DNA of 64,000 nt from Halobaculum roseum (lineage in GTDB: Archaea > Halobacteriota > Halobacteria > Halobacteriales > Haloferacaceae). Both the position numbers and the translations under genes were made by a program. Of the stretch, positions 2,772 through 29,831 are shown piece after piece. The stretch's first letter is position 1. Every line of letters begins with the position of its first letter. The DNA lies in the NCBI RefSeq assembly GCF_019880245.1, contig NZ_CP082286.1:2126521-2190520 (forward strand), in the 5' to 3' direction. Below the pieces are notes generated by a model. It did not search any database. It was not told the origin of the DNA and was given only the letters and a program-made list of their open reading frames with translations.

Positions 2772-4715
2772 ATGCCCGACACAGCCGGCGCCGACTACGG
2801 CGTCGCCCGATTCCTCGCCGTCGAACACGTCGACTCCCCGGCGTTCACGCCGGCGGGCCGCCTCCTGTTCCTCGCGGACACCTCCGGCACGCCGCAGGTG
2901 TGGACCGTCGACGAGCCGGGCGCGTGGCCGACGCGGCTCACCCCCTACGAGGAGCGCGTCTCTGCGCTTTCGGCCTCGCCCGCCGACGAGTCGTTCGTGT
3001 ACGCGATGGACCGCGGGAGCGACGAGCGCGATCAGCTCCTGCACTACGACCTCGCGACGGGCGTCGAGCGTCCGCTCACGGACGACCCCGACTCGAAGCA
3101 CGCGTGGGGCGCGTGGGGCCCCGACGGCGACCGGGTCGCCTACACGGCCAACCGCGAGGCCGACGGCCGATTCGACGTGTACGTGCAGGCGGTGGGCGGC
3201 GTCGACGGCGACGGCACGGTCACCCCCGCCGGCGACCCCGAGCGCGTGTACGAGGGGCCTGGCGGCTGGCTGAACGTCGCCGCGTTCGGTCCCGAGGGCC
3301 GTCGGCTCGTGCTCACGAAGGCGCACTCCAGCTACGACGAGGACCTCACGCTGCTCGATCTGGAGTCGGGGGAGACGACCAACCTCTCCGACGACTCCGA
3401 GGCGACCTACTCGCACGTTCACTTCGACGGCGACGGCGGGTTGCTCTGCGTGACGAACCGCGACAGCGACACGGCCTACGTGGGTCGGCTCTCGCTGTCC
3501 GACGGGTCGGTAACGCCGGTCGCGGGCCACGACGTGACGGCCGACGCGACCGGCGAGCCCGGAACCGACGAGTGGGACGTGGACGGCCTCGCGTTCGACC
3601 GCGACACCGGCCGGATCGCGTACACCGTCAACGAGGGCGGCTACTCGTCGCTGCGCGCGGGGACGCTCGCCGGCGACCCCGAGGACCCGCGCTTCGATCC
3701 GACCCCGACGCCGGATGTGGACGGGATCGCCGCCGATCTCGTCTTCGGTCCGGACGCCGAGCGCCTCGCGTACACCCACACGTCGCCGACGACGCCGTAC
3801 GGCGTCCGGACGATCGAGTTCGTTGACGGCGGCGGGACCGTCGCCGGCGACGGCGACGCCGTCGAGCGCGCTGAGGGGGGCGCCCCGACCGACTGGACGC
3901 CAGTCGGCCGCAACGGCCTCCCCGACTCGGCGTTCCACGCCCCGGAGACGGTCCGCTACGAGACGTTCGACGGACGGGCGATCCCGGCGTACTGGACGCT
4001 TCCGCCGGGCGTCGACGCCGACGACCCCGACGAGCGGGTGCCCGCGATCGTCGACATCCACGGCGGGCCCGAGCACCAGCGCCGGCCGTGGTTCTCCCCG
4101 ACGAAGCAGTACTTCCTGAACAGGGGGTACGCGGTGCTGGAGCCGAACGTCCGCGGCTCGTCGGGCTACGGGAAGGCGTACTCGCACCTCGACGACGTGG
4201 AGAAGCGCATGGACTCGGTTGCCGACATCGCCGCGGGCGTGGAGTGGCTGGCCGAGCAGCCGTCGGTCGACGACGACCGGATCGTCGCCTACGGCCGCTC
4301 CTACGGCGGGTTCATGGTCCTCGCGGCCATCACCGAGTACCCCGACCTGTGGGCCGCCGCCGTCGACTTCGTCGGCATCGCCGACTTCACCACCTTCCTC
4401 GAGAACACCGGCGAGTGGCGCCGGGGCCACCGCGAGGCCGAGTACGGCAGCCTGGAGGACGACTACGAGTTCCTGAAGTCGATCTCGCCGCTGACGAGCA
4501 TCGAGGAGGTCCGGTGTCCGCTGTTCGTCCAGCACGGCGCGAACGACCCCCGGGTACCGGTCGGCGAGGCCGAGCAGGTCGCCGACGCGGTTCGCGAACA
4601 GGGGGTCCCCGTCGAGACGCTGATCTTCGAGGACGAGGGCCACCACACGACGAGCCGGGAGAACCTGATCGCGGAGTTCGAGGCGATCGCGGACTTCCTC
4701 GGCGAGCACGTCTGA
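2772..4715 (+). CDS. S9 family prolyl oligopeptidase / acylaminoacyl-peptidase
   Basis: A 647-residue serine peptidase. The first ~390 residues form a beta-propeller of WD40/TolB-like blades, and the rest is an alpha/beta-hydrolase domain. The nucleophile lies in GRSYGG (Ser510), the acid in NDPRVP (Asp592), and the His in GHHTT (624-625). The order Ser-Asp-His and the propeller filter are typical of S9 enzymes that cleave short peptides or acyl-peptides. No signal peptide is seen, so it is probably cytosolic. The closest subfamily appears to be S9C acylaminoacyl peptidase. Confidence 0.9.
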   Translation: MPDTAGADYGVARFLAVEHVDSPAFTPAGRLLFLADTSGTPQVWTVDEPGAWPTRLTPYEERVSALSASPADESFVYAMDRGSDERDQLLHYDLATGVERPLTDDPDSKHAWGAWGPDGDRVAYTANREADGRFDVYVQAVGGVDGDGTVTPAGDPERVYEGPGGWLNVAAFGPEGRRLVLTKAHSSYDEDLTLLDLESGETTNLSDDSEATYSHVHFDGDGGLLCVTNRDSDTAYVGRLSLSDGSVTPVAGHDVTADATGEPGTDEWDVDGLAFDRDTGRIAYTVNEGGYSSLRAGTLAGDPEDPRFDPTPTPDVDGIAADLVFGPDAERLAYTHTSPTTPYGVRTIEFVDGGGTVAGDGDAVERAEGGAPTDWTPVGRNGLPDSAFHAPETVRYETFDGRAIPAYWTLPPGVDADDPDERVPAIVDIHGGPEHQRRPWFSPTKQYFLNRGYAVLEPNVRGSSGYGKAYSHLDDVEKRMDSVADIAAGVEWLAEQPSVDDDRIVAYGRSYGGFMVLAAITEYPDLWAAAVDFVGIADFTTFLENTGEWRRGHREAEYGSLEDDYEFLKSISPLTSIEEVRCPLFVQHGANDPRVPVGEAEQVADAVREQGVPVETLIFEDEGHHTTSRENLIAEFEAIADFLGEHV

Positions 4716-5147
4716 GCGTTTCCGGGGGTCGGCCGGCCGCGGGGTCGGTCACGTTCGGTACGTCGCCGGAGAATGAGACCTCCGGAGTCGGTGTGTCATC
4801 CGGTGAATCGGGTTCGGTTGACAGTGTCGCGGTTTCTCGATCGATCGGCTCGGATCACTCTCGACCGACCTCGAAAGCCCCCGTCGCTGTCGAGGGCTGC
4901 GACTCGCTGTGCTCCTCGGCTCGCTCCACTTCGTTCCGCTTGCCTGCGGTGCTTGCTTCGCCTCGCCGCTCGACAGCGACGGCCCCTTTCAGTCCCACCC
5001 ACAGCACCGCACAGTGGCCTCCCCCTCCCCCTCCCCCTCCCCAACCGACTCGCTCGGCTTCGCCTCGCTCGCCCCTCGCGCGCCCTCGCTCGCGCACGAG
5101 GCGCGAGCGCCGCACGCCACCGCGACGACGTATCTACCACCGCACGC
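4716..5147. other. 432-bp non-coding region between convergent genes
   Basis: No credible gene. It holds a structured repeat element (4868-5003, listed separately), a C/T-rich tract of CCTCCC-like units at about 5017-5042, and the clustered GCTCGC/GCGAGC words common in haloarchaeal spacers at 5045-5125. Both flanking genes end into this region. Confidence 0.7.
4868..5003 (-). repeat. Dispersed structured element, copy 1 (minus orientation)
   Basis: Read on the minus strand it begins with GTGGGACTGAAAGGGG and ends with GGGGGCTTTCG. CTCGACAGCGACGG (4969-4982) and CCGTCGCTGTCGAG (4881-4894) are perfect complements, forming a 14-bp stem. GAAAG (4873-4877) and CTTTC (4986-4990) on the plus strand extend it past an internal loop. 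The loop holds GCAAGCACCGCAG, GGAACGAAGTGGAGCG and GAGGAGCACAG, all recognisable in copy 2 at 29622-29742. The stem sequence differs between copies while pairing is kept. Confidence 0.7.
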
Positions 5148-5897
5148 TCACCACCCGTTCTCGATGTCCTCGTTCAGCGCCTCCAGGATCCGCTCGGTCG
5201 TGTTCGCCACCACCTGCTCCATGAACTCCGGGTCCGAGTTCGTCGGGTCGCCGAGCCCGCCCAACTCGGTTACGTCCGAGAAGTACGTCCACGAGCGCGT
5301 CTCCGGGAGGTCGTCGGCCTCCTGTGGTTCCTTCCGGTCGGACTTCACGAGGTCGTCGCGCACCAGTTCCACGAAGCTCGTCTCGTGGTCGCCGGCGTGG
5401 CCCCACCCCTCGCCGAAGTGGTCCTCCAGCTCGTCGCGCCCGAAGTCCGTCCAGTGAACGAAGTGCGCGCCGATGTCGTGGTCGCGGTTCAGCCGGTCGG
5501 TGGCGAGCGCGAGCGCCTCCTTGTTGCCGCCGTGGCAGTTGAGAAAGAGCACGCGCTCGGCGCCGTGTTCCGCGAGGGAGGCGCCGATGTCGATGAGCGC
5601 CTGCTTGTAGGTGTCCTGCGAGAGCGTCACGGTCCCCGGGAACGGCATGTGGTGTTCGCTGTACCCGTACGGGAGCGTCGGCGCGCGAAGCAGGTCGAGG
5701 TCGTGGTCGGGCGCGGCCTCGACGAGCTCCGCCGAGAGGTACCCGGCGCGGAGGCTGTCGGTGGAGAGAGGGAGGTGAACTGAGTGCTGCTCGGTGCTTC
5801 CGGTGGGGACGACGACCGCGTCGGCGCCGAGGAAGGCGTCGCCGGCGTCCTCCCAGGTCATCGTCGCCAGATCGTGTTCGGTCTCGGGTTCGGGCAT
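5148..5897 (-). CDS. Creatininase family amidohydrolase
   Basis: A 249-residue member of the creatininase/creatinine amidohydrolase fold, which uses two divalent metals to hydrolyse cyclic amides. In archaea the family also includes the FAPy deformylase ArfB of flavin/F420 synthesis and mycofactocin MftE-like peptidases. VVVPTGSTEQHSVHLP carries Glu/His ligands, and FLNCHGGN is the second hallmark motif. The start at 5897 was chosen because MPEPETEHDLATMTW leads straight into the family's N-terminal strand. The reading frame stays open further upstream, but that part looks non-coding. Substrate cannot be assigned; ArfB-like activity is one possibility. Confidence 0.82.
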   Translation of the reverse strand: MPEPETEHDLATMTWEDAGDAFLGADAVVVPTGSTEQHSVHLPLSTDSLRAGYLSAELVEAAPDHDLDLLRAPTLPYGYSEHHMPFPGTVTLSQDTYKQALIDIGASLAEHGAERVLFLNCHGGNKEALALATDRLNRDHDIGAHFVHWTDFGRDELEDHFGEGWGHAGDHETSFVELVRDDLVKSDRKEPQEADDLPETRSWTYFSDVTELGGLGDPTNSDPEFMEQVVANTTERILEALNEDIENGW

Positions 5898-29517: not shown

Positions 29518-29831
29518 GCGAACGGCACGACGATCCCGACACCCGAACGCAGTACGGGCGGGTGTCCGGGAGAGAACGATCTGCGGAACCGCCGCGGCGA
29601 CGATCCTCGACCGACTTCGGGCGGGACTGAAAGGGGCCGCGTTCTCGACGCTGCACGACCCCGCAAGCACCGCAGCGCGAACGCAGTGAGCGCGAGGAGC
29701 GCAGGGGCGGTCGCGCGAGTCGAGAACGCGGGGGCTTTCGCGGTCTTCGCCCGCTCGGTGAAATCGTCACCGACGGAGGCCACCGCCGAATCAGAACAGT
29801 TACCTCCTAGTCACGAAACCGAACCCGATCA
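29518..29831. other. 314-bp intergenic region
   Basis: It holds structured element copy 2 (29622-29742) and the promoter of the downstream NUDIX gene; the AT-rich AGTTACCTCCTAG at 29799-29811 is the best candidate. No credible gene is seen. Confidence 0.6.
29622..29742 (+). repeat. Dispersed structured element, copy 2
   Basis: Starts CGGGACTGAAAGGGGC and ends GGGGGCTTTCGCGG. CCGCGTTCTCGAC (29637-29649) and GTCGAGAACGCGG (29719-29731) form a perfect 13-bp stem, flanked by GAAAG (29629-29633) and CTTTC (29735-29739). The loop carries GCAAGCACCGCAG, GAACGCAGTGAGCG and GAGGAGCGCAG. The blocks match copy 1 (4868-5003, opposite strand), but the stem sequence is different with pairing preserved. 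Confidence 0.7.

Follow-up and report, generated by a model that had tools for sequence, protein, structure and literature searches.

The DNA analysed here, referred to as the window, is a stretch of 64 kb from Halobaculum roseum that contains two copies of a structured element. Copy 1 occupies positions 4867–5000 on the minus strand, in the interval between a plus-strand gene ending at 4715 and a minus-strand gene ending at 5148. It consists of GGGTGGGACTGAAAGGGG, a 14-bp stem, a loop, the returning stem, GGGCTTTC and GGTC, and matched the covariance model with a score of 90.2 bits (E 3e-14). On the minus strand the landmark GGGTGGG begins at 5000 and CTTTC finishes at 4873. By direct reading, the 5' arm of the variable stem (CCGTCGCTGTCGAG, minus strand, 4969–4982) pairs perfectly with the 3' arm (CTCGACAGCGACGG, minus strand, 4881–4894). 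Copy 2, at 29619–29745 on the plus strand, consists of GGGCGGGACTGAAAGGGG, a 13-bp stem, a loop, the returning stem, GGGCTTTC and GGTC, and matched the model at 94.1 bits (E 6e-15). Its stem is a perfect 13 bp, CCGCGTTCTCGAC/GTCGAGAACGCGG, and its loop keeps the block order of copy 1 with slight differences (GAACGCAGTG, GAGGAGCGCAG).

An earlier, sequence-only reading of the window had described copy 1 as a minus-strand element with a perfect 14-bp stem and a set of quoted loop blocks, all of which are present in the sequence, and copy 2 as having the same blocks in the same order around a different, perfectly pairing stem, a description that the 13-bp stem confirms. It had also placed copy 1 between converging gene ends. 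This is accurate for the locus, but the convergent setting is a minority one in the family as a whole.

Both copies are preceded by further structured sequence. Upstream of copy 1, at 5036–5120 on the minus strand, direct reading revealed a module comprising a hairpin, GCGCGCGAGGGGCGAGC, a second hairpin and GAGTCGGTTGGGGAGG, which was found with many copies of the element. The sequence TCGGYTGGGGAGG, which ends this module, occurs 20 times in the genome of the window, and 15 of these occurrences adjoin an element on the same strand. Between the module and copy 1 lies another repeat-like tract, the G-rich tandem stretch GGGGGAGGGGGAGGGGGAGG (5018–5036, minus strand), which has a shorter orthologue in the near relative G009. 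A small hairpin, CCCGACACCC...GGGTGTCCGGG, was read directly upstream of copy 2 at 29535–29571 on the plus strand, and hairpins resembling it precede other element copies without the TCGGYTGGGGAGG module.

Structure and covariation of the element

The element is about 110–135 nt in length and comprises, from 5' to 3', GGGYGGG, ACTGAAAG, GGG, a stem arm of free sequence forming 13–14 bp, a structured loop, the second arm, GGG and CTTTC. GAAAG is paired with CTTTC in an outer helix, and the loop consists of AAGCACCGCAG and GAGGAGCGCAG surrounding a variable inner hairpin. GGGYGGG, GAAAG, GGG..GGG and CTTTC are near-invariant across the family. The sequence GGGNGG stands immediately 5' of GACTG in 90 of 97 copies, forming a sharp 5' edge, and its G residues are unpaired within the hairpin.

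Pairing between the two stem arms of one copy holds at 95% of positions 4–12, compared with 39% for shuffled partners. In a first set of 15 copies of equal stem length, 97.5% of paired cells held and 21 of 32 pairs had changed on both sides, a result matched by none of 500 shuffles. For 103 distinct matches, 94.1% of cells were paired and 27 of 32 pairs covaried (0/500 shuffles), in an alignment that was fitted to the covariance model and is hence biased toward structure. Compensatory changes, which a structured single-stranded element requires in every helix, were found throughout: all six helices received at least some covariation support from the 103 matches, the weakest being the fourth helix, of two pairs, at 74% paired. 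In genus g13 the outer helix GAAAG/CTTTC is replaced by CAAAG/CTTTG, a compensatory switch in an otherwise nearly fixed helix. The selection on structure that had been inferred from the two window copies is thus supported by the further copies and by strong covariation, including in the shuffle tests; the lack of each was among the three refuting conditions set by the sequence-only reading.

The identity of the folding strand was assessed from stems with at most one departure from pairing, in which G-U pairs and A-C mismatches occurred in a ratio of 26:7 (p=0.001). The conserved loop, used as a control, had no corresponding excess of C-to-T over G-to-A. Since a cruciform would yield equal numbers of G-U and A-C, this asymmetry suggests that the sense strand folds alone; it appears to do so in single-stranded form, as RNA or ssDNA, and not as a symmetric DNA cruciform. 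The orientation of the loop is constant in 202 of 203 scorable interiors. The sole copy with its loop inverted between the stem arms is at locus L062 (about 1532–1625), and loop inversion as a general mechanism was rejected at this frequency (1/203).

Distribution and genomic setting

The genome of the window contains 22 occurrences of the 17-mer GGGACTGAAAGGGGCCG and 28 exact occurrences of its 13-base core GACTGAAAGGGGC, compared with 0 for the reversed-motif control, which identifies a repeat family and not a chance pair. Both copies noted by the sequence-only reading are therefore real at their sites but belong to a far larger family. A covariance-model search of haloarchaeal genomes, which that reading had proposed, matched 187 of the 242 genomes searched in the class and left 55 without a match. 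In a phylum-wide sample 15 of 120 genomes matched, all 15 inside the order Halobacteriales, and 0 of 101 genomes outside the order did. Within the samples searched, the element is confined to this order. An exact-motif scan of a genome collection was in agreement, every one of the matches listed being haloarchaeal. Haloarchaeal megaplasmids carry copies of the element; none was present in the viral contigs, searched with the exact motif, or in the phage records searched.

The window gave no match in Rfam at the gathering threshold, and the loci of five copies, searched with E-values up to 10, gave matches at chance level only. Strings of the element sequence likewise gave no relevant match in the open-access literature. 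This agrees with the initial failure to recognise a named family. The element is apparently a dispersed structured repeat that is so far undescribed in Rfam and in open-access papers; an earlier description elsewhere is possible.

Gene context was assigned with a simple gene caller based on codon usage, which was checked against the first genes of the window. The great majority of copies (212 of 225) lie between called genes, with genes on both sides, and two overlap a called gene. Single copies, drawn from several genomes, share their direction with the downstream gene in 75 of 112 cases (p=0.0004) and with the upstream gene in 59 of 112, which is no bias; a role as terminator of the upstream gene only was rejected on the latter figure. 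An element followed by a co-directional gene usually has its end about 95–160 nt before the start codon, and AT content reaches a maximum 25–30 nt before the start codon. A peak at this position fits the promoter expected of a leaderless gene; the element thus typically lies outside the downstream mRNA. The convergent setting, as in copy 1, is the rarest class. Copies within 800 nt of one another are arranged head-to-head only (20:0:0), with a spacing of mostly 39–51 nt.

Other sequences were observed in the vicinity of the element. The motif (G/A)AACACTACC, a 9-mer enriched about 74 times, is found 28–48 nt 3' of CTTTC in approximately 20 of 198 copies, for example at L022, L179, L194 and L247. 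At nine plasmid loci the element is preceded, in divergent orientation and at close range, by a gene for an OB-fold (Ssb-like) DNA-binding protein; gene and element occur together on haloarchaeal plasmids at L257, L258, L259, L261 and L262 (about 1050–2080) and also at L015, L020, L035, L153 and L212. This gene was rejected as a partner of the element, the association fitting one conserved plasmid neighbourhood only. No recurrent transposase neighbour was found in the element clusters listed.

Evolution of the copies and candidate functions

The collinear near relatives G000 and G009 have 21 of the compared element loci in common. In ten retained pairs the stems differ by 1.4%, the loops by 2.7% and the end blocks by 0–1.7%, with no gaps. 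The flanks of the same ten pairs differ by 7.3% and 10.1% and contain 192 gap columns. Sites with swapped interiors were left out of this comparison, which biases it toward slow change; so limited, the slower change of the element relative to its flanks points to selection that would keep it in place at retained sites. At other shared sites, including that of window copy 2, the entire interior differs, and the orthologue of window copy 1 has a deleted core. Identical 14-nt stems with unlike flanks occur in G000 at three pairs of unrelated loci. In one family, some but not all genomes have the element at the nucS-endA site (the gene names being a reading of the sequences), and 11 copies from this site covary at 18 of 32 pairs. 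The retained sites and the shared stems together indicate that sites can be long-lived while sequences still travel between them, most simply by gene conversion.

Two side observations concern rearranged copies. At L093 (about 2672–2740) an element in G009 corresponds to a short tandem array of CGGTGTGGTCCGTCGTCGCCGT in G000. A nested double-hairpin insert, TGGTTCGAG...TCGTCATCACGA...TCGAACGA, lies within the minus-strand element copies L010, L012, L043 and L294 from different genomes; it is placed at CG^CAG, without visible target duplication, and has the look of another small mobile repeat, one that may target the element.

The principal alternative is that the element is a non-autonomous mobile repeat of the SMR/PATE type, its hairpin recognised as ssDNA by a trans-acting transposase, in which case structure would be selected through transposition and not through a function for the host. 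We regard this as possible, if on balance doubtful. Core deletions and the one switched orientation have counterparts in other haloarchaeal repeats (PMC3119063). There are dozens of dispersed copies, in numbers that vary widely between related genomes, and the element is missing at some orthologous sites; folding of a single strand only and the three unrelated-locus pairs sharing a stem would also be accounted for. REP repeats rely on a Y1 transposase. Such Y1/RAYT dependence was rejected for the element, since 6 of 15 element-rich genomes lack PF01797 and 11 of 15 element-free genomes encode it. A search for an intact pre-insertion site or a clean insertion found none, and the absences examined at orthologous sites resemble deletions or rearrangements. 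A MITE would have terminal inverted repeats matching a known transposon and a target duplication; in the element, GAAAG/CTTTC and the stem constitute inverted repeats, and no intact empty site was seen that would show duplication. The sequence GACTGAAAGGGGCTTTC was considered as an empty target for cassette exchange and rejected, this collapsed form occurring in only 3 of 147 genomes. The lack of matches in the viral and phage collections and the slower change of retained copies relative to their flanks also weigh against a mobile repeat. The initial suggestion of a hairpin-recognised mobile element receives partial support, from the copying of interiors between loci; the Y1 hairpin transposase shows no co-occurrence with the element, and the search for a clean insertion site was negative.

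Four G3 tracts are conserved, with GGGNGG in 90 of 97 copies and the facing GGG and GGG almost invariant, among copies that were selected by a GGGG-containing motif. One idea is that a quadruplex site may be situated within the hairpin, between the fixed 5-bp helix and the freely varying helix of 13–14 bp. It is unlikely that the tracts form a three-layer G-quadruplex in the hairpin (GGG-Y-GGG with the facing GGG/GGG), stabilised by the high K+ levels of haloarchaea and serving as a transcription insulator at gene boundaries, which would be a new archaeal regulatory structure.

Also unlikely is a set of independent small RNAs, each copy with its own promoter and acting in trans. Strong covariation, conserved loop motifs and the single-strand folding signal would be expected of such RNAs, but the sequence immediately upstream of GGGYGGG is GC-rich, has no position-by-position conservation and contains no visible TATA box, and little spacer remains between the two copies of a head-to-head dimer. 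Nor do the stem arms match neighbouring DNA in excess, on which ground the hypothesis of a stem arm acting as a guide to neighbouring DNA was also rejected. A double-stranded DNA site, such as a cruciform or the binding site of gyrase or of a protein involved in nucleoid structure, is likewise improbable: the intergenic position upstream of promoters, the long palindromes formed by head-to-head dimers and stem pairs that are nearly all Watson-Crick would suit it, but a cruciform predicts G-U equal to A-C where 26:7 was observed, and loop orientation is fixed at 202:1.

The reading that we prefer, tentatively and with somewhat less than even confidence, is that of a dispersed repeat, similar to REP, BIME or SMR, kept for an effect of its folded strand at gene boundaries, of which attenuation or insulation is the likeliest. 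The function and mobility that we infer would take the following form. Each copy would act at a gene boundary, folded within the nascent transcript, to attenuate or insulate transcription and so restrict read-through toward the next promoter, and its GC-rich hairpin, flanked by A3 and T3 tracts, may resemble a bidirectional terminator. Copies would spread and be refreshed through recombination or gene conversion between repeats and not by a dedicated Y1 transposase, and the mode of working would be an archaeal counterpart of that of BIME, ERIC or BOX repeats. The multi-copy, order-restricted occurrence, the covariation, the G-U excess, the g13 switch, the slow change and the fixed loop orientation argue for this reading, as do the intergenic position, the downstream co-direction (75/112), the copying of interiors between loci and the termination of transcription at a Haloferax hairpin (PMC7237163). 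Against it are the lack of strand bias to the upstream gene (59/112), which is unlike a classical terminator, a T tract only three long, and a slow-change figure biased by the exclusion of swapped sites. The 55 of 242 class genomes without a match also count against it, since the element is evidently dispensable.

Most genomes of an archaeal class carry a structured repeat, with strong covariation and slow change in retained copies, that is apparently unannotated. If it operates at the RNA level, it would be one of the commoner structured elements in haloarchaea and would bear on how neighbouring transcripts are separated in gene-dense genomes; if it is mobile, its carrier would not be the usual Y1 transposase. 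The model and motif allow easy annotation and testing in culturable haloarchaea.

Comparison with known systems

In Haloferax, a GC-rich hairpin is described close to a TTTC motif, 59% of transcripts were terminated at one hairpin that was tested, and the main intergenic terminator signal is a T tract that is longer and ends in C (PMC7237163). The element resembles these terminators in its GC-rich hairpin near TTTC; the passages of that study consulted report no repeated family (PMC7237163).

SMR-A of Haloquadratum walsbyi (HqIRS42/43/55) is about 110 bp long, has inverted repeats, occurs in tens of copies per genome and shows no target duplication, and SMRs, PATEs, switched repeats and core deletions have been reported among Haloquadratum strains (PMC3119063). 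With these precedents, the dynamics seen in the element are already known in kind. The element is similar to SMR-A in its size, inverted repeats, tens of copies and core deletions or switches between genomes. It is set apart from HqIRS42/43/55 by the description of SMR-A itself, which inserts into near-terminal palindromes of the PATE/IS605 type, whereas the element is intergenic (212 of 225 copies), is found in most genera of the class and has stems that vary by copy. PATEs, derived from IS605-type transposons, are haloarchaeal repeats that lack a transposase, contain palindromes and show no target duplication (PMC3119063). Their palindromes are near-terminal at both ends, whereas in the element one hairpin fills the whole length, and the absence of co-occurrence with a Y1 transposase is unlike the kinship of PATEs with IS605-type transposons.

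The bacterial REP/BIME, ERIC and BOX sequences are dispersed intergenic hairpin repeats with paired or mosaic arrangements and modules in fixed order (PMC2267715). The element, itself a dispersed intergenic hairpin repeat that is often paired and has its modules in fixed order, is of the same general kind; it differs in a sequence that is unrelated to theirs as far as tested, and in a free stem that covaries across the class.
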